Positions 27-21,051 are shown, counted from the stretch's first letter. The stretch: DNA of 21,051 bases from a virus (IMGVR_UViG_3300032235_000474:1-21051); one strand, 5' to 3'. Program-made: numbers and translations. The notes: generated from the sequence alone by a model not told the origin.

Positions 27-920
27 TTAAACCCACAGCGCAGCTGAGCCGTGGGCACGGATAACGATATCGCTATCGCCATCACAACGTAGAGATGCAG
101 GACACGTGTCGCATGTTGTATGCATGGGTAGCATATTGCGCATTGCTCGCATCTCGTTAATGAATGGATCGCTAGGACACTGCTTGCAACCACGAGAATA
201 TGCAACGTGGCGCTTGTCACCGTAGCCATCGTGTGGACGGACTAGGAATGTACCCCAACCAGCCTCTTTGGCTTCCCAACGATCGATGTAAGAATCGCAT
301 GACGCTTGAAGCACACCACGGAATGGTTGCGCTATACGCTCACGCCATTGATGTGTGTAGCCAGTATGACCAAGCTCATAGCGTAACATGTCGCCCCATA
401 TGGGGAATGGTACGGCAACTGGATCGCCATATGTACCCATGCGCAGCTTCTTGCCAGCGACTAACTGAATGGTGGCTGCAACAGTACTGGTGATGATAGG
501 TACATTACCTCGCTGAAATGATTCCCATACAGCAGACGTGCCCTTGCCAATGTTGACATAGCAAGTGCGTACATCCTTGACCTTGGCGGTACGAGTATGT
601 CGCTTGCGTCGCTTGCGGTGTGTGCAGTTGCCACAGATACAACTGTCAAGTTGTTGATCGATGGCAAGTTGTGGATGTACATCACGCATGATGATGTATG
701 TCTGAATCATGTCGCCTGTTTTGATGTTCCAGTCTTCGTTGTTAGTCTGGCAGTTGGACATAACGCATATGATGCGAGACCGTCTATCTAGCTGGCTGAC
801 ACTATCATAGATACAGTACGAGTTGTACTTAGGCTTCATGTGTTTGCCATTGTGTACATTAGTAAAAAAGGCTGGATTTGCATCCAGCCCGAACTTAGCG
901 AGGTATTGTTTTGCTGTCAT
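27..920 (-). CDS. Conserved phage protein, Cys-rich, GTYGDP/TGYTHQW motifs (function unknown)
   Basis: The 297-aa protein starts at an ATG that overlaps the previous stop (ATGA), with an SD (GGGAGAG) inside the end of the upstream gene. The C-terminal two thirds carry LRMGTYGDPVAVPF, HTGYTHQW, GWGTFLVR and a final CPASLRC. From memory this resembles a widespread phage family of unknown function (possibly DUF7227), in which a G-YGDP loop and a TGYTHQWR box are conserved. The N-terminal ~100 residues are more variable and hold a CICGNC knuckle. Further Cys pairs (CKQC, CDTC) could bind metal. It is last in the visible operon. On the minus strand after its stop, an AAGG and an ATG at positions 5-3 suggest that another gene begins at the window edge. 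The family assignment is moderately sure; no activity can be inferred. Confidence 0.85.
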   Translation of the reverse strand: MTAKQYLAKFGLDANPAFFTNVHNGKHMKPKYNSYCIYDSVSQLDRRSRIICVMSNCQTNNEDWNIKTGDMIQTYIIMRDVHPQLAIDQQLDSCICGNCTHRKRRKRHTRTAKVKDVRTCYVNIGKGTSAVWESFQRGNVPIITSTVAATIQLVAGKKLRMGTYGDPVAVPFPIWGDMLRYELGHTGYTHQWRERIAQPFRGVLQASCDSYIDRWEAKEAGWGTFLVRPHDGYGDKRHVAYSRGCKQCPSDPFINEMRAMRNMLPMHTTCDTCPASLRCDGDSDIVIRAHGSAALWV

Positions 921-5779: not shown

Positions 5780-6148
5780 TTAGCTTATTGCGTCTAACCA
5801 CGAGTGATCACCGCATTCGGTGTCGATTGCGTGATCATCCAACTTGAATGACCACGTGTTTTTGTATAGCTCGCCGTCCATATGGAAGACAAACATCCAT
5901 CTACCGCCGTTATACATTGGACAACGTGTGTTATCGCATGTTGTTGGTGGATAGATGTAGCCACGAAAGTTTGGCTCATTATGAAGTCTCATAAAATGCC
6001 CAACATCGTCCCTGAATCCATCCGCAGGAATCTCTTTGTATTTCCTGTCTTTGATAGAGACTTCTGTGCCGATTGGATCCATGGCAGCGATAGCCTCATC
6101 AGTACTTTGCAGTACCATTCTGAGAGTCTTGAATGAATTGATGTCCAT
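5780..6148 (-). CDS. Hypothetical phage protein, 122 aa
   Basis: MDINSFKTLRMVLQSTDEAIAAMDPIGTEVSIKDRKYKEIP... has an N-terminal helix and then a strand-rich region with CDNTRCPMYNGGRWMFVFHMDGELYKNTWSFKLDD. One CxxxxC pair is present, too little to claim a zinc finger. The start shares a base with the previous stop (TAATG). A promoter/operator gap follows, so this ends the upstream leftward unit. No family recognised. Confidence 0.75.
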   Translation of the reverse strand: MDINSFKTLRMVLQSTDEAIAAMDPIGTEVSIKDRKYKEIPADGFRDDVGHFMRLHNEPNFRGYIYPPTTCDNTRCPMYNGGRWMFVFHMDGELYKNTWSFKLDDHAIDTECGDHSWLDAIS

Positions 6149-6354
6149 TAGTAACCTAACCTCCTACTACGTGCTGACTTCTCATCAGCAGTACGCGCCT
6201 CTTGAATCATCTGGTCTAACTTCCTCGTTAGACTTTTGAGTTGTTCCTCATTGGCACGAATCGTTGTACCTGTACGTGACCAAGTCTTGTACATGCACTT
6301 GGACAACTCACTGATCTCAGCTTGAAGCATGAGGATTTTTTCTGTTTGTTTCAT
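6148..6354 (-). CDS. Small coiled-coil protein, 68 aa
   Basis: MKQTEKILMLQAEISELSKCM... is almost wholly helical, with heptad-like hydrophobic spacing (ILMLQAEISELSKCMY; EEQLKSLTRKLDQMIQEA) and a basic tail (KSARSRRLGY). AAAGGAAA is a good SD upstream of ATG 6354. It probably forms a coiled-coil dimer; the partner is unknown. It is coupled to the next gene by TAATG. A structured untranslated segment of about 100 nt precedes it. Confidence 0.75.
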   Translation of the reverse strand: MKQTEKILMLQAEISELSKCMYKTWSRTGTTIRANEEQLKSLTRKLDQMIQEARTADEKSARSRRLGY

Positions 6355-6371: not shown

Positions 6372-6447
6372 TTATGCAGCCGCTTTTTAAGCCTGACTCA
6401 TCAGTGTGGGGAGGCTAAGTCCCACAGACTTCTCCGCATGGGAGAAG
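6372..6447 (-). other. Structured leader with competing hairpins
   Basis: On the minus strand, after the stop at 6454, CTTCTCC-CATGC-GGAGAAG forms a 7-bp stem. It is followed by TGTGGG...CCCACA (10-nt loop) and then AGCCT...AGGCT, whose left arm lies within the loop of the second stem. The latter two cannot form together. No U-tract follows the first stem, so it is not a standard terminator. No gene or convincing ORF is present. Confidence 0.5.
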
Positions 6448-6453
6448 TTTCGT

Positions 6454-6924
6454 CTAGATAAGACCAGTTGCTTTCATGGCCTCATGTTCAAGAAGGACGG
6501 TGTTACTAACGTACGTGCCGTACCACATCTCAAAACCTGCACCCTTGAGTGTAAGTAAGCACTCGGTCTTGAATGGATAGAGCTTGTCACTAGGTATTAC
6601 CTTTGCGTCTTGCCCAGTGTGCTCTTTGAACAGGGCAGCAAACTCATTGGCTTCTTCTTCAGTGATGAACAGAAGCATCTTCTTGTATCCCTTTCCGTCG
6701 AGAGTGATGACATCTGACCCGTCCTCCGTACGCAATATGTACGGCTTCATTGGCCAGTCGAGCAACTCTTGCTCATCATGTCCGTTCTCAGTTGAGAACT
6801 TGCTAATCGAGGCTTTGATATCCTGAATCTCCTGCTTGACGATTCCTGCGAGCTTACGCGTTTTTGCGTTACGCTGGAATGCAGTGAAGAAGTTTTCTGT
6901 GAAAATGCTTGGTCTTTTTCTCAT
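6454..6924 (-). CDS. Hypothetical phage protein, 156 aa
   Basis: MRKRPSIFTENFFTAFQRNAKTRKLAGIVKQEIQ... begins with a basic helix that could contact nucleic acid. A longer helix, an acidic linker (STENGHDEQELLDW) and a C-terminal alpha/beta region follow (YILRTEDGSDVITLDGKGYKKMLLFITEEEANEFAALFKEH). AAGGAAAA serves as SD, located between the U-tract of the upstream terminator and ATG 6924, so only 21 nt separate the terminator from the start. It must therefore be transcribed by read-through. No family recognised. Confidence 0.78.
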   Translation of the reverse strand: MRKRPSIFTENFFTAFQRNAKTRKLAGIVKQEIQDIKASISKFSTENGHDEQELLDWPMKPYILRTEDGSDVITLDGKGYKKMLLFITEEEANEFAALFKEHTGQDAKVIPSDKLYPFKTECLLTLKGAGFEMWYGTYVSNTVLLEHEAMKATGLI

Positions 6925-6945
6925 TGTCGTTTTCCTTGTTGTGTT

Positions 6946-6969
6946 AAAAAAAGGGGGCTTGCGCCCCCT
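6946..6969 (-). terminator. Intrinsic terminator, GCAA tetraloop
   Basis: Minus strand AGGGGGC-GCAA-GCCCCCT followed by TTTTTT. A 7-bp GC stem, GNRA loop and long U-tract make this the clearest terminator of the left arm. It follows the stop of the gene at 6975-7526 by 5 nt. Confidence 0.93.
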
Positions 6970-6974
6970 GTGTG

Positions 6975-7526
6975 TTAGTCGAGATTGAACATCTCGGCAA
7001 AGTGAGCCTTGTCGGCTCGTGTCTGCTTGATTTTCTCTTCACAGTGAGCAAGCCACTGCCATTTTAGTTCTTCGAGTCGCTCATGGATTTTGGTTGCCTC
7101 GATTCGTTTGACGTAAAGGTATGCGACATCAGTCTGTGTACGGCTTGATCCGTACATAGTGTTAGTCCAACTGTCAACCACGATTTTAGCCTGATGGATT
7201 ATTGTGTCAACCATCACTTGTACATCGTTGTTTCTCTCAAACATCACACTGACATTGCTCGATGCCCACAGTTTGTCACCCATTGCCCACCACATGAGCG
7301 CTTCATCCCATTCCTCATTGATGCAGCACATCATGCCAGCATTGAACATGGCACGTGCATCAGACGTTGCGGCTGCATCATCGTATGGGATCTCATTGAT
7401 GACTGACCCGTAATATGTACGGGCCTTAAGTGTCTTTTCAAGCAAACCAGTTGCTTTCTTATTCAGATTGTATTGTTGGTGTTCACATGTGACAGGTGAG
7501 TCAACTAGAAATTCAAACTTCAGCAT
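6975..7526 (-). CDS. Hypothetical phage protein, 183 aa
   Basis: MLKFEFLVDSPVTCEHQQYNLNKKATGLLEKTL... appears mostly helical. Its centre is rich in Met, Trp and Ala (ARAMFNAGMMCCINEEWDEALMWWAMGDKLWASS), and the C-terminus is a long charged helix (YVKRIEATKIHERLEELKWQWLAHCEEKIKQTRADK). TTAGGAAC provides the SD. The gene starts about 38 nt after one terminator hairpin and ends 5 nt before another. No enzymatic motif or membrane segment was found. Confidence 0.78.
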   Translation of the reverse strand: MLKFEFLVDSPVTCEHQQYNLNKKATGLLEKTLKARTYYGSVINEIPYDDAAATSDARAMFNAGMMCCINEEWDEALMWWAMGDKLWASSNVSVMFERNNDVQVMVDTIIHQAKIVVDSWTNTMYGSSRTQTDVAYLYVKRIEATKIHERLEELKWQWLAHCEEKIKQTRADKAHFAEMFNLD

Positions 7527-7549
7527 CTCATTGTTCCTAACGTGGTTGA

Positions 7550-7581
7550 AATAAAAATAAAGTGGGGGACTTGCGTCCCCC
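7550..7581 (-). terminator. Terminator-like hairpin, GCAA tetraloop
   Basis: Minus strand GGGGGAC-GCAA-GTCCCCC followed by the U-rich CACTTTATTTTTATTT. It lies just after the 45-aa membrane gene and about 38 nt before the ATG at 7526. Confidence 0.82.
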
Positions 7582-7589
7582 GTTGTTGA

Positions 7590-7727
7590 TTAGTGGCCGA
7601 ATGGATATCGATGCATCGGGAGCGTTGACAGCGCCCAATACATTGCCAACAACCCACCTACGATAACGACAGCGGTCAAGCCGTCCAATACAAACTGGAC
7701 GAGCCAGTGGTGACGCCGTTGTTTCAT
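7590..7727 (-). CDS. Small single-pass membrane protein, 45 aa
   Basis: The peptide MKQRRHHWLVQFVLDGLTAV continues VIVGGLLAMYWALSTLPMHR and YPFGH. Basic residues 3-7 precede one hydrophobic helix (about residues 8-35), as expected for an inner-membrane protein with its N-terminus inside. The ATG overlaps the stop of the upstream gene as ATGA, so translation is coupled; a terminator follows 8 nt later. Small phage membrane proteins include holins and inhibitors of superinfection, but one helix and the left-arm location do not decide between them. The gene is too short for many callers. Confidence 0.8.
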   Translation of the reverse strand: MKQRRHHWLVQFVLDGLTAVVIVGGLLAMYWALSTLPMHRYPFGH

Positions 7728-7966
7728 CTCGTGCCACCAATCCTTCGAGCCAACGCTACAACGTCAACGTCGTCGCTTGCGCCCATAATGCGGGCGAGGC
7801 TAATCATCTCGCGCTCCAGTTGTGCCCACGACAGGATGTGCCCAGTGAAGCCCATTTCACCATGGGCGCTCTTTATCGTTACGGTTGTCTGTCCACTGGG
7901 CGTGGGAGTCGAGATAGAAACCGAATACTTGCGGTTTTGTGTCAGAAACAAGCCATTGAATTGCAT
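7724..7966 (-). CDS. Hypothetical phage protein, 80 aa
   Basis: I use ATG 7966 (MQFNGLFLTQNRKYSVSIST) since AGAGGTG lies 7 nt upstream; the GTG at 7975 lies within that SD. The first half is strand-like (YSVSISTPTPSGQTTVTIKS) and the second helical (WAQLEREMISLARIMGASDDVDVVALARRIGG). The pair with the 45-aa membrane gene is coupled by ATGA, suggesting the two products act together. No family recognised. Confidence 0.76.
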   Translation of the reverse strand: MQFNGLFLTQNRKYSVSISTPTPSGQTTVTIKSAHGEMGFTGHILSWAQLEREMISLARIMGASDDVDVVALARRIGGTR

Positions 7967-8050
7967 GGCGTTCACCTCTTTGTTGTGTTACGTTTCGCCT
8001 GTAGACTGGCCTCGTCAGCTCATTGGCATCACCCAATGAGGACATAACAT

Positions 8051-8076
8051 TAAAAGGGTTGGGGGCTTACGCCCCC
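8051..8076 (-). terminator. Terminator hairpin containing the stop codon in its loop
   Basis: Minus strand GGGGGC-GTAA-GCCCCC followed by AACCCTTTTAAT. The TAA stop of the gene at 8067-8456 lies inside the GNRA-type GTAA loop. The U-tract is short and displaced by AACCC, so efficiency is uncertain. Confidence 0.75.
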
Positions 8077-8456
8077 GGTTCCAACAACCCCTTGCGAAGA
8101 CCGTACTTCACATCCTGCGGGGTAAACATCAGCAACAGGTAGTCACTGACTAGGTAACAGTCCGTGTAGCCGTCCAATGCCAGTTCATCCTTGGCATCCG
8201 ACAGCCCTGTACTTATCACGCTTCCATTGACGCTATATGTGAAGTGCATATCTTCACCCTTCACACTGCGAGATACCGTGAAGTAGTCGTGCGATAGCGC
8301 AACTACATTCCAGTCAACGGGGATGGCTACGTGTACCGTTTCACGCACACCGTCCTTGAGTCCGTTGATATGCATATGGTACTTCACACCATATGAACTA
8401 AGTTCTGCGAGATTGCGCACGTTGCGCAGATGCGGGGTACTGATTGTTTGGCTCAT
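8067..8456 (-). CDS. Hypothetical phage protein, 129 aa
   Basis: ATG 8456 (MSQTISTPHLRNVRNLAEL) follows AAGGAAAA; earlier in-frame codons run through the upstream terminator and are rejected. The protein is beta-rich (YHMHINGLKDGVRETVHVAIPVDWNVVALS, HFTYSVNGSVISTGL) with a C-terminal hydrophobic/helical part (CYLVSDYLLLMFTPQDVKYGLRKGLL). Its TAA falls in the loop of a GC-rich hairpin, so the terminating ribosome would cover that hairpin. No family recognised. Confidence 0.76.
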   Translation of the reverse strand: MSQTISTPHLRNVRNLAELSSYGVKYHMHINGLKDGVRETVHVAIPVDWNVVALSHDYFTVSRSVKGEDMHFTYSVNGSVISTGLSDAKDELALDGYTDCYLVSDYLLLMFTPQDVKYGLRKGLLEPGA

Positions 8457-8481
8457 TGTTTTTCCTTTTTTTTTGAGATAA

Positions 8482-8508
8482 AAAGAAGCCCCGGTATTGA
8501 ACCGGGGC
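8482..8508 (-). terminator. Intrinsic terminator, 8-bp stem
   Basis: Minus strand GCCCCGGT-TCAAT-ACCGGGGC followed by TTCTTTTTATC. It lies 9 nt after the stop of the gene at 8517-8858 and about 31 nt before ATG 8456. Confidence 0.9.
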
Positions 8509-8509
8509 A

Positions 8510-8527
8510 ACCCGTCTTACGACGGGT
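8510..8527 (-). other. Stop-codon hairpin (GTAA loop)
   Basis: Minus strand ACCCGTC-GTAA-GACGGGT forms a 7-bp stem with the TAA stop of the gene at 8517-8858 inside the loop. It abuts the terminator at 8482-8508, giving two hairpins in tandem. Confidence 0.75.
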
Positions 8528-8858
8528 CTTCTTCGGTAGCGGTCAGACCGGAGAAGTCCATTGCCTTCACCTGCGCCTTCGCCATCGACACGTTACGGTC
8601 AGCCGCCTTCTTCTTCTTGACTGCAACCACCGTTGCATTCACTTCACTCTGGATGGCATCCAGTACCGCCTGCAAGGTTTTAGGCGTAGCGTTGGCATCG
8701 GTGGCAAATGATTGCCCGTACACCGTTGCAATATCGTTGCACGTGTCAACGATAGTTTTCATGTCGCACGGGATGCCAGATTCCCTGTAAACCTTCAACG
8801 CCTGCATGATGCCTGCGTAATCATTGCGCGCGGATGCGATAACTTGTTCTGTTGTCAT
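8517..8858 (-). CDS. Hypothetical phage protein, 113 aa, first leftward gene
   Basis: ATG 8858 (MTTEQVIASARNDYAGIMQAL) is chosen because the sequence upstream turns into the palindromic hub; AAAGGAAA lies about 12 nt before it. A start 15 codons earlier (MAGYSRKHKGKRIV) is possible. The protein is helical, with a Lys-rich segment (VAVKKKKAADRNVSMAKAQVK) and an acidic end (TATEEDPS). It begins the leftward array next to the hub, a position often held by immediate-early genes. Its leucine codons are all TTG/CTG, unlike the TTA-rich right arm. No family recognised. Confidence 0.74.
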   Translation of the reverse strand: MTTEQVIASARNDYAGIMQALKVYRESGIPCDMKTIVDTCNDIATVYGQSFATDANATPKTLQAVLDAIQSEVNATVVAVKKKKAADRNVSMAKAQVKAMDFSGLTATEEDPS

Positions 8859-8906
8859 AACTATTCGTTTTCCTTTATGTTTTCGGCTATAACCTGCCAT
8901 CGTCGG

Positions 8907-8924
8907 ACATTCACCGGTGAATGT
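8907..8924. repeat. 18-bp perfect palindrome plus TGAATG tandem repeats
   Basis: ACATTCACCGGTGAATGT is a perfect palindrome. The right half continues as TGAATGTGAATGTGAAC, adding two further 6-bp periodic half-copies. It lies 49-66 bp upstream of the first leftward gene, so it is a candidate operator for leftward transcription. Confidence 0.8.
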
Positions 8925-9019
8925 GAATGTGAACATAAGATAATGTGTTGACCGGACGACCCCGGAGGGCGTCCATGCCATGTAGGTGCCCGGGGATTTG
9001 CAACCAAGTCACGTGCCTA

Positions 9020-9177: not shown

Positions 9178-9215
9178 TTGCTACAATCATGTAGTATGGG
9201 TATACTTACGGTATA
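9178..9215 (+). promoter_or_regulatory. Promoter for tRNA-Asn, with TATACTTACGGTATA motif
   Basis: TTGCTA (-35, 9178-9183), a 17-bp spacer and TATACT (-10, 9201-9206) give a good sigma70-type promoter, with a start predicted just before the tRNA at 9217. The -10 is the left part of TATACTTACGGTATA (9201-9215), an interrupted dyad (TATAC/GTATA) shared with the tRNA-Leu site. Confidence 0.75.
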
Positions 9216-9216
9216 T

Positions 9217-9288
9217 TCCTACTTAGCTCAGCGGTAGAGCGTTCGGCTGTTAACCGAATGGTCGCTGGTTCGATCCCAGCAGTAGGAG
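9217..9288 (+). tRNA. tRNA-Asn (anticodon GTT)
   Basis: A 72-nt cloverleaf: acceptor TCCTACT/AGTAGGA, D arm GCTC-AGCGGTA-GAGC, anticodon stem TTCGG/CCGAA with loop CTGTTAA, T arm GCTGG-TTCGATC-CCAGC, discriminator G. CCA is not encoded (GTC follows), so the host must add it. It reads AAC and AAT. Confidence 0.96.
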
Positions 9289-9324
9289 TCCCCCATGTAT
9301 GTAAAGGCACTGGGGATGGCGTTG

Positions 9325-11323: not shown

Positions 11324-11340
11324 TATACTTACGGTATAAT
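11324..11340 (+). promoter_or_regulatory. Promoter motif upstream of tRNA-Leu
   Basis: TATACTTACGGTATAAT repeats the 15 bp found before tRNA-Asn and ends in a perfect -10 hexamer TATAAT, 8 nt before the tRNA. No good -35 hexamer is seen at 16-18 bp, suggesting that the motif itself, or an activator, defines the promoter. Confidence 0.7.
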
Positions 11341-13527: not shown

Positions 13528-13923
13528 ATGTTCAATAATGTTTCACTTGTCGGCAGGTTAACAGATGATCCTGTTACAAAAGAATCACAACTTGGTAAAA
13601 GTTACACGAGTTTCTGTATTGCAGTAGATCGCAAGACAAAAGATAAAGAAGCAGATTTCTTTAACTGTACATTGTTTGGAAACTCAGGTGTAGCTTTAAA
13701 TGAGTATGCACAAAAGGGACGACTACTTGCAGTGAGCGGTAAAGTTCAAATTGATAAGTATACAAATAAAGACGGAGTAAAGATGCAAGCTATTAAGGTT
13801 ATTGTAGATAACTGGTCACTTCTGGATTCACGTAAAGAGCAAAATGATACAACTCAACCAGTTGCCACTAAGGTGAAACAAGTTAACACGGATGACATTG
13901 ATGATCCGTTTGCAGATGATTAA
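13528..13923 (+). CDS. ssb: Single-stranded DNA-binding protein
   Basis: ATG 13528 (MFNNVSLVGRLTDDPVTKES) is chosen because GGAGGA lies 4-5 nt upstream; a longer in-frame version would translate the promoter dyads. The 131-aa protein has the OB-fold of bacterial-type SSB: NVSLVGRLTDDP, SYTSFCIAVDRK, ADFFNCTLFGN, LLAVSGKVQIDKY. A short linker and an acidic tail, DDIDDPFADD, follow, resembling the DDDIPF tip that recruits repair and replication proteins. It coats single-stranded DNA in phage replication. It converges with the LuxR-type gene, overlapping by 4 bp. Confidence 0.95.
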   Translation: MFNNVSLVGRLTDDPVTKESQLGKSYTSFCIAVDRKTKDKEADFFNCTLFGNSGVALNEYAQKGRLLAVSGKVQIDKYTNKDGVKMQAIKVIVDNWSLLDSRKEQNDTTQPVATKVKQVNTDDIDDPFADD

Positions 13924-14126
13924 TCTAGAAGATTATTTATTAATGCTACGTTGTAAGCCTTTTGCCTTGCACCAACCCCGCCAACACCTAACTTAAAGTA
14001 GGCATTCTCTAGGTAGAAATGTACAGTCCTTGGACTTATCTGTAGTTCAAGGGCTATTTCTTTGGAAGTCTTATTCTTGCCAAGCAATGCAATAACTTCC
14101 TTTTCGCGCTTTGATAATTGCATCAT
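13920..14126 (-). CDS. Solo LuxR/GerE-type HTH regulator, 68 aa
   Basis: MMQLSKREKEVIALLGKNKT then SKEIALELQISPRTVHFYLE is a nearly complete LuxR C-terminal HTH: LS-REKEV--LL----S-KEIA--L-IS-RTV--(Y)L-N---KL. The usual N-terminal autoinducer or receiver domain is absent, so it is not a sensor by itself. Second-residue Met allows start at 14126 or 14123; no clear SD is present. The motif ACTTGCGGTAGAAT, close to the ssb/tRNA promoter motif, lies immediately upstream on its strand, so the gene may autoregulate or share control with ssb. The target is inferred only. Confidence 0.9.
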   Translation of the reverse strand: MMQLSKREKEVIALLGKNKTSKEIALELQISPRTVHFYLENAYFKLGVGGVGARQKAYNVALINNLLD

Positions 14127-15027: not shown

Positions 15028-18000
15028 ATGGCGTCACTGTTATCAAGTTTGGTTCGTGCAAATAATACGGATGAAGAGAAAAAGGTAGAACCACCTGTTT
15101 CAATTCCTCCTGTTGCAAATCCTGTTACTCCTGCCCCTGCTCCGGCACAACCACAACAGCCGGTGTCAATACCACCAGTAGCGCAACAGGCACCAGTAAA
15201 ACCTGCACCTGCTAATCCATTAGCATCAATGAATATTGGTGGACTCACACTTAATCCAGCTGACGCCTTTTTAAAAGGAATGATTAAAGGTGGACAACCC
15301 ACTCCGGGCCTACCTAATATTGCTCCTAAACTCACAACAGGTATTGCAAGTCCTGCAGCAACATGGAATGTAGATTCATTAAAAAAAGAAGCAGACGATC
15401 TATCTACATTTGTTGGAGTCCAAAATAAAGGACGTCCTAAATATGGTTTAGAATTTTTAGACACTGCGGGTGACTGGTTAAAATCACAGCCAGATGCAGG
15501 TGATTCATTTGATATGAGTGCCATGCCAATTAAGGCACTTATCAAAAAAGCTACTGATTTACGAAACAATCCTGACCCGGCTGCGCAACTGCAAGCAAAA
15601 ACATATGCAGACGGTTTATTGTATTTAACTCAAGCAACATTGAATCGCGATAACGAAAAGGCAAACGATGCTAAACGTTATCTAGAACAAATATCTGGTT
15701 ACAATCCAGAAGATTTTAAACAGCAAAATGTTCAGCGTCTAGTAGCTGGCAAAACAAAAACTATTAATGCATATGCAAAGCCAACTCCACTTGCTAGTGC
15801 AGATATGGCAAAAGAGTTAGATCCTGAGACGATTAAAAAACGGTTGGTTGGAACAGCTGTATTTGACTACGTGCGAGATCACTTTACTGAATTGACACAG
15901 ATGTCTCAGTCTGGAGGACCTGACGCAGAAGGTGCATCACGCACACTTTCAATTTTTAAGGGCGCATTTAAGGACGTTAATGCTCCAGTATCTGAGGGTA
16001 CACGTGATGCTCGTATTGATGCGTTTATGGGTACACCTCAAGGTCGAGCAATAATCAATGAAGCCTATAGTCAATTAGATGGCATTGGATTCTTTAATCA
16101 AGCAAAAGCAGGGGATCTTGTAACGCGTACACGAAAACAGATTCAAGCAACACAACGAAGTGAAAAGTTTGATAACACTGTTACACCTGAAGAGATTCGT
16201 GATGTGTTTGGTCCATCGCGTATGCGTCGTCAAATAAAGTCGGCATTAAACATCAGTGGTGATTTAAGCCCAGATACTGCACGTGCATATGAATTAGCTC
16301 CTGACGATCAAGATGTGCGTAAAAAAGTTTACTCTGGATTATCACCACGTGGCGTAGCTGCATTGTATGGAGTGGACGAGTCTGGTTCGTATCTTGGTGA
16401 TACGGATCTTGCGCAACAATCTGACACCTCATATTACGATCTATCATCAAACGTTCGTGGCGGAGTAGTGCCATCCGCAACAACTGTTCAGGGCGTAGCC
16501 ACTGGTCGTATACAATCCCGCCCAGCGCTTGCTGGTGGATTAGCTGCTGGCATGGGTTTAAGCACCGAGCAGTTAACACAGGCTGCCCAAAAACTATATT
16601 CTGATCCAGCACAAATTAAAGAATTTGTAGATGCTGGTTTATCAGATTACACAATGGATAGTGACATTGTCCCTAAAATTGAGTCTGACTTAAAAGCAGT
16701 AAGGTTGCAAAAAACGGGTGGAGCAAAAACATCTGGCGTTGCGACTAACACTTACAATTTACTTACTGATGCATTTAATGCAATTACATCTGTTGTGCCT
16801 CAAGAACGACAGGGCGAATGGAATAACAGACGTCGTATTGTCAATGACATTGCAGCGCAAGCACGTAGTCTTGAAGGGTCAACACTAGAAGCTAAGGGTA
16901 GTTTGTTTGCAAAAAAACCTGATGGCACACAAGATTTCTATTCACCATTATTGCCAACACGAGATGATCAAGTTGGACGAATACAAGTTCTTCAACAAAT
17001 TCTTGAGCATGCAAAAACGGATAGTGGGTATCGTGGTGAACTTAATAAGTTAATTTCCAGTGCTTTGTCTGACCTACCTTACACTGGCAGAATTAACATG
17101 AAGCCTAGTGAATTAAAAACACTGGTAGGCCTATATGCGTCACGGCTAGAAAGTGCTGCCTTTGCAACAAAGGGTAATCTTACGGATAGATGGTACGAGA
17201 AGACATTTAGTATTACTCCATCTGAACTTACAAAGACTGATTTAAAAACTGCGCTATTGCAGAAAATGTTAAGGGCAAGTAAGTCTCGCCTTTCTACATT
17301 TGCATCACAACTCAATATTGACGCCGAAGGTAATCAACGATTTATACCAACTACGGATGCTGAAAAATTAGTAGCTAATCAATCTGCAATACCGGGTGAT
17401 ACTGGTGGTAAGGGTGGTAAGTCAAGCGCTCCAGAAAGAGAAGCCATTAAGTCTATTGACACCAGTCTTTCAATCATGGATCGGGCAATGGGCGCTGGAC
17501 GTCAGGCAATTTTAAACTTTGCAAATGACGATAAAAATGAGGGACTGTCGGGCAAGAGCTTTGCCATTGGCATTTCTAACGCATTCAAAACGGCGCTTAC
17601 AGATAATCTAAAAGACGTCACGATGACGGCACAAGATAAAGCTAAATTTTTAAATGCCGTAACAAATATCTCGGATGAATTGAAAGATGCTGTCAGATTA
17701 GATTGGATGCGTGGCACTGTAACTGACACTGACGTTGATGGTTTACTTGGTAAGTATTCTGGTTATACACGAGTAATGTCGGCTAAGGCTCCGCCTCCGA
17801 AAAAGACACTAACTGATGAGGAGCGACTTAAACAATTAACGGATGGTGAGAAGCGATTAATTGAAGCACGTAAAGCGTTAGGTGAGACTGACGAGCAAAT
17901 TAAAGCAACTCAAAGTTATACAGAAAAAATTCTTGCAGAATACAAGAAGAAGAATGATCCATATGGTCTGTTTGTATCTGGGTGGCAAGCTAGTGTTTTA

Positions 18001-21000
18001 CGACGCGCTGGACAATCTGATGCAAAAATCAAGCGCTACGAAGAACAAATAGATGGATTAACTCAACGCATTGGTGATTTACGGCAAGTTGTTTCTGCTA
18101 GTACTGGGCAAGCAAAAGCTGATGCTATTAAAGCGATTGGCACAAATCAAGAAAGTATCACCGAGTTAAATGCAAAACTTGACGAGCAAAGGGATCTTTT
18201 AAAGAAACTTGCTGGATCATACACAGCTCCACCTACTGTAGAAGAATGGAATGCGTCGCAGTCTAAGCAGTTAGATAGCAAGATTTCTACAGATGCGGAA
18301 CGTAAGTACTACACAAAATTACAACAAAAGCTAAAGGCTAGGGGTTTTGACGCCTTTACCCCAGAGGAGAAACGTTGGTACTACATGGCCAACGTACGCC
18401 GATTTGAAGCAGGTGATTCAAATAATATTACTGTTGGGAAAGAACGAAGATTAGTATTCCAGAGCTTTATCCAAAGTCCATCCGGTACTAAATACAAATT
18501 AGATGAGCCATTAACTGCTGAAGGCGATCTGATGCAGCCAGAAATGAATTATTTCATTGAAAAGAAGGATCGTGGCGGACGAGTTATTGGTATGCAATTG
18601 AATCCTAATGTGGGATTTACATATCAATGGACTAAGAACGAAAAAACGGGCTATGTGTCAGATGTCAATATTATTGCGCAAGAACGCATTGTAGAAGGCG
18701 ACAATAAGCGAGTCATTACTGGTAAGCAGAAAATCATCACAGGTGTCGAGAACGACTTAGTAAAAGCAAAGAATGACCTACTCGATGTAACCAAAACATT
18801 CCAAGGTGTTGATGTTGCTATAAACAAAAATACACCTAATGCAAAGTTTGGTGGCATTACAGAAAAAGGACGGCGCAGACAAGCTACACCAATGTCTGGT
18901 GTATTAAGAGACATTCTCACACTTACATCTCAGGATAATTTGTCAGCGGCCAATAAGCAAAACCTTGCGGATTTAATGACCATTGCTAAACAAAACATTG
19001 TTGGCATGAAAGATGTTGACGCTTATTTGACTAAGATTATCGAAGTCAATCGCAAGGCTAAATTTGCAGATGAATTTGCAGGAACGTTACGCCAACGAAT
19101 TGCCGATCGTATTGAGGCTATTGCGAGTAGATCTGGAGGACGTGTTATTACGCCAAAGGACATACAAGATGACTTGCAAGAATACTTCAAACTTACGGCG
19201 GACGATGAATCGTTACGTCAACACACGCAAGAAGACATTGAACTAGCAAAGAAGGCTGGAGTTCAGAGAGAACTCAAAGATAAGGACGGCAACATTCGTG
19301 TAATACCAGAGACAAATATTGTCGAGAGTATATTAACGAAGGTTTCAAATGGTAATCCACCAGTAGCCTTAACAACATCTACTAACTTTAAGGATCTACA
19401 GTTATCTGTTACTGCGAAGCTTAATACATACATGGCAAAGCTAGATGATCAGATTTCCTATGGTACAGATCAAACTGCTATTGCTAAGGCATCAACAACA
19501 CGTGCTCGTTTAGCACAAGTCATTGAAAAGGTTAATGCATCTGGTAATAAGACTGCCTTAAACGCAGCGCTAAATAATTTAGTTGGCAAGGAATTTACTG
19601 ACGCAAAGAATATTGTTGCTAATTGGAACGTGCGCAAGGATTTAGATTTTGGCACGTATTTCAAGCAGTACAAGACTTTACAAGACAAAGTCAACAATGG
19701 CACCGCAACTGAAACAGAAACAAAAAGGGCAGCATTGTTAGCGTCAGCTGGAAATACATGGTTTAAAAAATACGGCCCATCGATTGGTGGCAATCCGATG
19801 ACGGTGCTTTACGATGCAGCTGTGCGCCGTGATTTACGAGATGTCGCGATGACGGCACTTGGTAAACGGGAAAATAATGCGTTTAACGTAATCTTTGGTG
19901 AACGTGCCCTGCACTATGTTCGTTACGATATACCGACCACTACAAATGCTGGCAACGTTGACGAAGAACATTATAAAGCGTGGTTGAAAAAACTATCCAA
20001 AAAGGATAGAGAGCGATTAGAAAAGGAAAAAGAATTTGGAGAAGCGCTAGGATTAGACACAAAAAACTACACTCTGAGTAGAGGTGTATGGGCCGACTTG
20101 TTTAAGCGATACGACAAGATGTCTCCAAGCCAATGGATTGATTGGGTTTACAACGCAAACATAGACGCTGATGAGCGCAACAGGTTATTTAGAGAATACA
20201 AGCCTTGGGCTGGACCGCGCAATAATGAGGAGGCAATTGCTGGTGAAGTAGCAGAAAAAAGAAAGACGCTTGGAGTTACAGTAGACGGCTATGTTGTACC
20301 AGTAGATCTAACCGGAAAAGCTGCGCAACGTTTTCCTGAATGGGTAGAAAAAGCAGACAATCCTACATCCTCGGATTTTTACAAAGGTCTTTTCTACAAG
20401 ATCGACAACAAACAAACAGCTTACATGGATGTGTTGCGTAACAGTGTTACTGACAGAACGTACACCATTAAAGACGATAAGGGCAAGACGCTTACAAATA
20501 GAAAAGCTGGAGATTTTTTACTGAAAGAAGAGTTTGGTAAAGATCCAGAATTAAAACCCGGTTATACAGTTCTAGGATGGAAGGAAACATACTTTGATGA
20601 AAATGGTACCAAGCATACTCGTACGTTTGAAGGAGATCATATAAAGCATGGCAGTCTTTCGATTGAGCCATGGAATTTAGCTAGACGAATTGGTAAGTCC
20701 AATGTTGGTGCAAAAATTGCCGTAGACCCAGCCAAAATAAAGAATGCTATTGAACCACCTTTCCCAAATTGGGGTGAACCTAAGACAGAACCACTTCCTG
20801 TAAAAACAGGAGACAGGTTAGGTTTCCGTGTGGAAGGTAGAGACTTCTGGATTGGACGGCGAGACTACCTTGATATTGTTGATCAAATCAAAGCTGGAAA
20901 AATTAAAGCACGTGACTACAAAGAGATAACCGCTATTCTCCTAGATAAAGTGCGCATTAACGTAGGTCAAGCTAAGCGTATGGGCACGTATGGGCATACA

Positions 21001-21051
21001 GCTCGCTCAGGATACGCTACGGATATTACTGCTGATGTAGCAGTTGATGGT
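15028..21051 (+). CDS. Giant phage protein (>=2008 aa, open at the right edge)
   Basis: The frame starts at ATG 15028 (MASLLSSLVRANNTDEEKKV), with AAGGA 7 nt upstream, and shows no in-frame stop to the window end, so the true length exceeds 2008 aa. Residues ~22-65 form a Pro/Ala-rich linker containing VSIPPVA twice. Residues ~925-965 and ~995-1065 are coiled-coil candidates (EERLKQLTDGEKRLIEARKA; KIKRYEEQIDGLTQRIGD). Much of the rest is helical, alanine- and lysine-rich, with a later beta/aromatic region (GYTVLGWKETYFDENGTKH). No enzyme motif (transglycosylase, peptidase, polymerase) was recognised. Size, helical character and position after small basic genes fit an internal-head, ejection or tail-assembly protein, but a non-virion role is not excluded. 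Leucine TTA is frequent, matching the phage tRNA-Leu. Confidence 0.9.
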   Translation, partial: MASLLSSLVRANNTDEEKKVEPPVSIPPVANPVTPAPAPAQPQQPVSIPPVAQQAPVKPAPANPLASMNIGGLTLNPADAFLKGMIKGGQPTPGLPNIAPKLTTGIASPAATWNVDSLKKEADDLSTFVGVQNKGRPKYGLEFLDTAGDWLKSQPDAGDSFDMSAMPIKALIKKATDLRNNPDPAAQLQAKTYADGLLYLTQATLNRDNEKANDAKRYLEQISGYNPEDFKQQNVQRLVAGKTKTINAYAKPTPLASADMAKELDPETIKKRLVGTAVFDYVRDHFTELTQMSQSGGPDAEGASRTLSIFKGAFKDVNAPVSEGTRDARIDAFMGTPQGRAIINEAYSQLDGIGFFNQAKAGDLVTRTRKQIQATQRSEKFDNTVTPEEIRDVFGPSRMRRQIKSALNISGDLSPDTARAYELAPDDQDVRKKVYSGLSPRGVAALYGVDESGSYLGDTDLAQQSDTSYYDLSSNVRGGVVPSATTVQGVATGRIQSRPALAGGLAAGMGLSTEQLTQAAQKLYSDPAQIKEFVDAGLSDYTMDSDIVPKIESDLKAVRLQKTGGAKTSGVATNTYNLLTDAFNAITSVVPQERQGEWNNRRRIVNDIAAQARSLEGSTLEAKGSLFAKKPDGTQDFYSPLLPTRDDQVGRIQVLQQILEHAKTDSGYRGELNKLISSALSDLPYTGRINMKPSELKTLVGLYASRLESAAFATKGNLTDRWYEKTFSITPSELTKTDLKTALLQKMLRASKSRLSTFASQLNIDAEGNQRFIPTTDAEKLVANQSAIPGDTGGKGGKSSAPEREAIKSIDTSLSIMDRAMGAGRQAILNFANDDKNEGLSGKSFAIGISNAFKTALTDNLKDVTMTAQDKAKFLNAVTNISDELKDAVRLDWMRGTVTDTDVDGLLGKYSGYTRVMSAKAPPPKKTLTDEERLKQLTDGEKRLIEARKALGETDEQIKATQSYTEKILAEYKKKNDPYGLFVSGWQASVLRRAGQSDAKIKRYEEQIDGLTQRIGDLRQVVSASTGQAKADAIKAIGTNQESITELNAKLDEQRDLLKKLAGSYTAPPTVEEWNASQSKQLDSKISTDAERKYYTKLQQKLKARGFDAFTPEEKRWYYMANVRRFEAGDSNNITVGKERRLVFQSFIQSPSGTKYKLDEPLTAEGDLMQPEMNYFIEKKDRGGRVIGMQLNPNVGFTYQWTKNEKTGYVSDVNIIAQERIVEGDNKRVITGKQKIITGVENDLVKAKNDLLDVTKTFQGVDVAINKNTPNAKFGGITEKGRRRQATPMSGVLRDILTLTSQDNLSAANKQNLADLMTIAKQNIVGMKDVDAYLTKIIEVNRKAKFADEFAGTLRQRIADRIEAIASRSGGRVITPKDIQDDLQEYFKLTADDESLRQHTQEDIELAKKAGVQRELKDKDGNIRVIPETNIVESILTKVSNGNPPVALTTSTNFKDLQLSVTAKLNTYMAKLDDQISYGTDQTAIAKASTTRARLAQVIEKVNASGNKTALNAALNNLVGKEFTDAKNIVANWNVRKDLDFGTYFKQYKTLQDKVNNGTATETETKRAALLASAGNTWFKKYGPSIGGNPMTVLYDAAVRRDLRDVAMTALGKRENNAFNVIFGERALHYVRYDIPTTTNAGNVDEEHYKAWLKKLSKKDRERLEKEKEFGEALGLDTKNYTLSRGVWADLFKRYDKMSPSQWIDWVYNANIDADERNRLFREYKPWAGPRNNEEAIAGEVAEKRKTLGVTVDGYVVPVDLTGKAAQRFPEWVEKADNPTSSDFYKGLFYKIDNKQTAYMDVLRNSVTDRTYTIKDDKGKTLTNRKAGDFLLKEEFGKDPELKPGYTVLGWKETYFDENGTKHTRTFEGDHIKHGSLSIEPWNLARRIGKSNVGAKIAVDPAKIKNAIEPPFPNWGEPKTEPLPVKTGDRLGFRVEGRDFWIGRRDYLDIVDQIKAGKIKARDYKEITAILLDKVRINVGQAKRMGTYGHTARSGYATDITADVAVDG

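Follow-up and report, generated by a model that had tools for sequence, protein, structure and literature searches.

How are successive genes of a phage operon expressed when a GC-rich hairpin stands between one gene and the next? The question is raised by a viral contig, IMGVR_UViG_3300032235_000474, of which the whole stretch of 21,051 nucleotides (nt) analyzed here (IMGVR_UViG_3300032235_000474:1-21051) is referred to as the window. A leftward early operon of small genes of unknown function starts near 8.9 kb and extends to the left end of the window, and four hairpins within it (H1 to H4; Table 1) had been described in a sequence-only reading as serial terminators connected to the genes behind them by read-through, RNA processing, or active antitermination. 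Comparison with related phages suggests that the operon instead probably mixes intrinsic terminators (H1, together with H3 and H4) with self-cleaving hammerhead junctions, one of which has a companion hairpin.

Under this explanation, some polymerases would read past H1, H3, and H4 to reach the next gene, whereas two junctions would cleave themselves: the one between the genes for proteins of 129 and 80 amino acids (aa), which contains H2 and a type III hammerhead, and the one between the 156-aa and 68-aa genes, which contains a type II hammerhead. Once transcribed, the hammerheads would cut the polycistronic RNA. The upstream mRNA would then end in or near a stable hairpin resisting 3'-5' exonucleases, provided by H2 at the type III junction and by the ribozyme's own stem III at the type II junction, and the downstream mRNA would begin with a structured 5'-OH leader just before its Shine-Dalgarno (SD) sequence.

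Hairpins of two kinds

All four hairpins are present at gene ends on the minus strand and fold as previously described, including the GNRA-type loops (GCAA, GCAA, and GTAA) of three of them. Hairpins with at least six G-C pairs and a T-bearing tail occur four times in this 2.5-kb region, whereas its dinucleotide shuffles (n = 300) contained a mean of 0.03 and a maximum of 1. Every gene behind a hairpin has its own SD. The distances to the next ATG, earlier given as about 31, 95, 38, and 21 nt, are close to those measured from the hairpin base (31, 94, 37, and 27 nt); the small differences arise because some of the former ran from the U-tail.

The view that the four hairpins form a single class, and hence a uniform terminating device, does not hold. 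H1, H3, and H4 combine a GC-rich stem with an immediate U-tract, having 7, 5, and 6 T's, respectively, in the 8 nt after the stem (in H3, two nucleotides separate the stem from the U-run). H2 is followed by AACCCTTTTA, which has only 3 T's in 8 nt. The 129-aa gene ends within H2, the stem of which encloses the UAA stop codon in the tetraloop; the stop codon lies inside the H2 loop in five of six relatives. H2 thus is not terminator-like, and its gap holds a hammerhead; H4, for its part, is missing in the relatives L003 and L017. The hairpins are therefore two kinds of part, terminator-like ones and one tied to a hammerhead junction. The earlier list was also incomplete, since it missed the type II hammerhead after the 156-aa gene and a hammerhead-like element in the operon leader (8938-8875).

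A type III hammerhead behind H2

The gap behind H2 reads TGTTATGTC-CTCATTGG-GTGATG-CCAATGAG-CTGACGA-GGCCAGTCTACAGGC-GAAA-CGTAACA. Judged from its sequence and its homologues, the element at 8050-7985 is a putative type III hammerhead ribozyme: the conserved CUGANGA ... GAAA core is present as CUGACGA and GAAA, GUC provides the NUH cleavage site, and the helices follow the order III-I-II-III with covariation. In an alignment of nine homologues, 96% of stem cells are paired and 11 of 15 pairs are altered on both sides (11 of 14 when stems III and I are taken together). The covariation score was 0.57 versus 0.25, and none of 500 shuffles reached it. Pair exchanges are directly visible in stem I (CTCATTGG/CCAATGAG versus TCTATAGG/CCTATAGA) and in stem III (GTTAT/GTAAC versus ACGTG/CACGT); four of the nine homologues carry an additional G at the 3-bp stem II.

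A covariance model (CM) of the element gave 72 bits for the window copy, and its only matches above 23 bits in 686 kb were its nine training elements, some of them found twice in overlapping loci. The homologue in L003 (5370-5428) scored 45.1 bits (E value, 7e-8) against Rfam Hammerhead_3 (RF00008), for which the gathering cut-off is 48.5. L017, L020, and L027 share the extra-G variant at the corresponding junction. At the next junction downstream, occupied by H3 in the window, L003, and L031, these three phages have a second type III element.

A type II hammerhead and a variant element in the leader

The second predicted self-cleaving junction follows the 156-aa gene. Its core elements are arranged in the type II order (II-GAAA-III-NUH-I-CUGAUGA-II), and the element scored 33.8 bits (E value, 2.7e-4) against Rfam Hammerhead_II (RF02276; gathering cut-off, 37). 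It is conserved in six phages with 100% pairing, and a strict type II descriptor had no match in 1.56 Mb of shuffled sequence.

The hammerhead-like element in the leader has the type III order and is found at the same place in L017, L027, L003, L020, and L031, with covarying stems: as many as four kinds of pair occur at single positions of stem III, and stem I varies throughout. The CM match is weak; a descriptor of the element had no matches in 4 Mb of shuffles. The cores are CCGACGA in the window, L017, and L027, TTGATAA in L003 and L020, and CTGAATGAA in L031. The last carries an A6a insertion, reported to be weak (PMC3088659). As U4C, the change in the window core, is not named in that text, the window leader element may be slow or dead.

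Such variant cores, some of which were weak or inactive in the published tests described there (PMC3088659), and the fact that hammerheads are common across viral contigs are what might be expected if the hammerheads were relics or mobile passengers without a role in expression, with the hairpins being fortuitous or serving to insulate the ribozyme fold. This appears improbable in view of the strong covariation and the conservation at fixed junctions. Moreover, TTGATAA represents the C3U/G8A covariation, which the same source reports as active (PMC3088659), and an insulating role would predict hairpins at type I elements too, where no enrichment was found (see below).

A companion hairpin specific to type III elements

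If H2 belongs with the type III element, similar hairpins might accompany such elements elsewhere. Viral contigs obtained from pattern scans unrelated to the window phage were examined for a hairpin of good stability whose end falls at most 8 nt 5' of the element. These contigs lack phylogenetic independence (L415 and L424 seem to be related), yet most of the hairpin sequences differ. In the first scan, a hairpin was found beside 9 of 21 type III elements, compared with 15 of 252 background windows (p=1e-5), but beside only 15 of 135 type II (p=0.21) and 4 of 89 type I elements (p=0.79). An independent scan, run after the hypothesis had been recorded, gave 14 of 20 for type III versus 13 of 240 for the background (p=1e-11) and 2 of 58 for type I (p=0.83). 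Of the 39 contigs in which the two scans found a type III element, 23 have a companion hairpin.

These hairpins lack a U-tract, and the tail between hairpin and predicted cut is 5 to 12 nt long (median, 6). The upstream product of type III cleavage would end single-stranded, whereas that of types I and II ends in its own stem III hairpin; because a bare 3' end would arise from type III cleavage alone, an upstream hairpin would be needed by no other type. RNase R, PNPase, and similar exonucleases require a longer 3' overhang to engage, so the short spacing fits a cap. The companion hairpin thus likely caps the 3' end left by type III cleavage. On the downstream side, an SD and start codon lie within 60 nt behind 115 of the 135 type II elements.

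Several observations weigh against the explanation preferred here, that of terminators interspersed with self-cleaving junctions. The window copy of the type III element matched no Rfam family, and the hammerhead scores that were obtained fall just under the Rfam gathering cut-offs; at the gathering threshold only tRNAs were found, and the ribozymes emerged through lower thresholds and comparison with relatives. For the type III family (RF00008), the gathering threshold is, however, a curated cut-off and not a defining biochemical feature. In the type II element, only 2 of 16 pairs are altered on both sides and the remainder hardly vary. In the window, 20 nt separate H2 from the cut, compared with tails of 5 to 12 nt elsewhere, and H2 would accordingly protect the end less tightly; the tail is 13 nt in L003 and 8 nt at the second junction of L017, L020, and L027. 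Finally, stem II of the window type III copy is preceded by an additional nucleotide, although this variant is conserved in four phages. The plus-strand hammerhead of chrysanthemum chlorotic mottle viroid reportedly also has a single additional nucleotide separating A9 from stem II (de la Pena and Flores, 2001); there it is an A in an element of viroid replication, whereas in the window it is a G.

Terminators and expression beyond them

H1 has the features of a canonical intrinsic terminator and is predicted to act as one after the first gene. Most relatives retain it at the same site, where the motif ACCCGGTA/TACCGGGT recurs and the flanks covary; in L009, L010, L013, and L023 it is found in tandem. 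In most relatives the terminator is followed by 24 to 42 nt and then by an SD and ATG. The gap behind H1 is too short to accommodate a sigma-70 promoter, in keeping with the earlier reading, and because the short gap recurs in relatives, the genes beyond would have to be reached by read-through or antitermination. Of the routes proposed earlier, these two fit H1, and processing fits the H2 gap and the junction at 6454-6395.

Active antitermination itself was not borne out. In the lambda PL operon, the N gene is followed by the terminator tL1, and the window likewise has a strong terminator straight after the first early gene, with other genes beyond. Here, however, no N-like protein or other candidate antiterminator was seen, nut-like and put-like sites not having been searched for, and the protein encoded before H1 is among the least conserved, which argues against a conserved N-like antiterminator. 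The first-gene product was set aside as an antiterminator on account of the strong divergence among proteins encoded at that position. A simpler reading than an N-like antiterminator is that a fast-evolving first gene is expressed at high output, with partial read-through. For a stepped gradient of gene dosage, which had also been suggested, there was no evidence.

H3 is shared by L003 and L031, while L017, L020, and L027 have a GC hairpin with their second type III hammerhead at that position. Among relatives aligned at the 183-aa/156-aa junction, H4 was not found in L003, nor at the compact junction of L017. Both hairpins are terminator-like and may represent weaker or lineage-specific terminators. 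The weak Rfam matches at or near H1 (anti-hemB, Spot_42, and RyhB) fall far short of the respective cut-offs and reflect the generic form of a terminator. Within the 183-aa gene, a promoter-like TTGACA-16-TAAAAT (7210-7183) was set aside, as it is not retained in L003.

It is possible to read all four hairpins as plain intrinsic terminators, leaky or regulated, with read-through or phage-directed antitermination producing a lambda-like attenuation cascade. The GC stems and U-rich tails of H1, H3, and H4 fit such a cascade, as does the often tandem terminator placed after the first gene and 24 to 42 nt before the next SD-ATG in most relatives examined. So does a GCAA-loop hairpin with a U-tract at window positions 890-869 (minus strand), a candidate intragenic attenuator 30 nt into a 297-aa gene (920-27); the DNA of this hairpin hardly changes at synonymous sites across about 25 of 28 relatives, in contrast to the variable codons next to it. 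A cascade of this kind nonetheless seems unlikely, given that H2, which has no U-tract, precedes a covarying hammerhead, that a hammerhead replaces H3 at its junction in three relatives, and that neither an antiterminator nor a well-conserved gene before H1 was identified.

The position of the hairpins, 20 to 95 nt upstream of genes, also recalls the single-strand hairpin promoters used by an N4-like virion RNA polymerase. Giant proteins of no known family are encoded by the window (at least 2008 aa; 15028-21051, plus strand) and by a relative (4264 aa; L245:1502-14296, minus strand). Neither has a Pfam match, and the window protein is also without a PHROG match; no RNA polymerase family was recognized in them, and a genome search for PF00940 was negative, although its control also failed. 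Since the hairpins are at gene ends, with three U-tailed and one in a ribozyme junction, promoters of this type are highly improbable and were not supported.

A tRNA-like element at the junctions of other relatives

Nine relatives without detectable hammerheads (L009 to L012, L022, L025, L026, L028, and L032) have a tRNA-like element at early-gene junctions. It consists of an acceptor helix, a linker bearing CUGGUG (GCUGGUGC), and a T-arm with UUCGAUU; the anticodon arm is absent. In most cases, a small hairpin and the next SD-ATG follow at a short distance. In L022 and L025 the element lies directly 5' of the homologue of a 122-aa gene, which in the window is located one gene behind the type II hammerhead.

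A pattern blind to the acceptor helix retrieved the element in about 90 stretches of viral contigs, in which the covarying acceptor helix averaged 4.65 bp, compared with 1.79 bp when 5' and 3' halves were permuted (maximum among 200 permutations, 2.2). ARAGORN reported a tRNA near only 1 of 80 elements, and Rfam contains no family for it. A blastn search for the full element in named phages returned T-arms only; one such match is in the gp49-gp50 gap of Mycobacterium phage Send513 (L496), where the whole shape is evident on reading. At L009:4070-4125 and L010:3832-3887, a variant was observed whose acceptor helix overlaps the stop codon and which has an internal hairpin arm with a GCAA loop.

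The tRNA-like element and a hammerhead occur together in none of the relatives studied here, an exclusion that kinship among them could explain. Host RNase P, RNase Z, or both would presumably cut the tRNA-like element. We give about an even chance to the broader proposal that phage early operons contain interchangeable cut-and-cap RNA modules, namely, a hairpin-capped type III hammerhead, a self-capping type I or II hammerhead, or the tRNA-like element.

Genomic context

The window is assigned to an uncultivated podovirus-like phage because a P22-like portal (PF16510), a terminase large subunit (phrog_38), and a major head protein (phrog_212) are encoded by its relatives, which are 63 to 67 kb long. 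The rightward arm opens with a tRNA-Asn gene (9216-9291) and encodes the giant protein; by reading of the translations, other proteins of this arm presumably correspond to ThyX, dUTPase, and SSB. An exact repeat, CTTACGGTATA, is found at 9205-9215 and 11328-11338 (plus strand), immediately 5' of both tRNA genes, and also precedes tRNA genes in several relatives; it is likely a promoter motif. A block in the leader of the leftward operon, AATATTTGTTTTGGAGTCCCAACTAGGCCG (9103-9070, minus strand), is strongly conserved in L003, L017, and L020 and is a candidate early promoter or regulatory site. A 68-aa protein of the LuxR/GerE helix-turn-helix type is encoded opposite to the direction of the right arm (13920-14126, minus strand). 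The 129-aa protein retrieved no relatives when used as a query.

Table 1. Features of the leftward early operon and tRNA-like elements of relatives
Feature	Position	Strand	Remarks
Leader GC hairpin	8954..8974	-	GGACGCCCTCCGGGGTCGTCC; upstream of hammerhead-like element
Hammerhead-like leader element (type III order)	8875..8938	-	Variant core CCGACGA (U4 to C); predicted site 8931/8930
First gene of operon	8517..8858	-	113 aa; unknown function; highly divergent among relatives
H1	8508-8488	-	GCCCCGGT-TCAAT-ACCGGGGC then TTCTTTTTAT; 8-bp stem; U-rich tail to 8478
129-aa early gene	8067..8456	-	Stop codon within H2 loop
H2	8076-8061	-	GGGGGC-GTAA-GCCCCC then AACCCTTTTA; no U-tract; companion hairpin of type III hammerhead
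Putative type III hammerhead	7985..8050	-	CUGACGA core, extra G before stem II, GAAA, GUC; predicted cleavage between 8041 and 8040
80-aa early gene	7724..7966	-	Behind type III element
45-aa early gene	7590..7727	-	Overlaps 80-aa gene
H3	7581-7564	-	GGGGGAC-GCAA-GTCCCCC then ACTTTATTTT (tail ACTTTATTTTTATTT); terminator-like
183-aa early gene	6975..7526	-	Unknown function
H4	6969-6952	-	AGGGGGC-GCAA-GCCCCCT then TTTTTTAACA (tail TTTTTTT); terminator-like
156-aa early gene	6454..6924	-	Stop codon UAG gives first base of type II element
Putative type II hammerhead	6387..6455	-	Canonical core; predicted cleavage between 6427 and 6426; RF02276 match
68-aa early gene	6148..6354	-	Behind type II element
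tRNA-like elements	L022:1067-1110, L022:2394-2437		
tRNA-like elements	L025:3449-3491, L025:4426-4468		
tRNA-like elements	L026:2534-2577, L028:1524-1566		
tRNA-like elements	L011:4597-4637, L032:386-426		
tRNA-like element	L496 ~786-826		

Relation to known systems and implications

Clustered hammerheads of phages and prophages cleave multi-gene transcripts in vitro and in Escherichia coli, and ribozyme cutting of phage operons was proposed on that occasion, the exact functions of bacterial and phage hammerheads being described as still unclear (Perreault et al. 2011; PMC3088659). Those prophage clusters resemble the window in having several type II and III hammerheads per operon, each just upstream of a gene, in the proposed cutting into mRNAs of one or a few genes, and in natural core variants (PMC3088659). 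The present operon differs in that terminators are intermixed, the type III element has a companion 5' hairpin, hairpin and ribozyme are swapped between relatives, and tRNA-like elements are found in relatives; companion hairpins are not mentioned in the passages of PMC3088659 that were found.

The literature searched, in which many subscription papers were missing, contained no mention of the type III companion hairpin, of its specificity for that type, or of an alternation with a tRNA-like element. The companion-hairpin rule and the alternation appear to be new. In phage T7, the polycistronic early RNA is cut by host RNase III at long intergenic stems, yielding stable mRNAs that end in hairpins. 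The proposed arrangement is alike in that intergenic structures cut a polycistronic early transcript into hairpin-ended, stable mRNAs, but whereas T7 relies on host RNase III, here the RNA itself would do the cutting.

These observations caution against labeling intergenic GC hairpins of phages as terminators by default, and they bring to attention a widespread tRNA-like element that would, if confirmed, define a new RNA family outside Rfam. The type-specific companion hairpin offers a simple and testable role for hammerheads, in which protected mRNA 3' ends would be produced without termination while expression continued downstream. If this is true, phage hammerheads would gain a concrete function in 3'-end formation.

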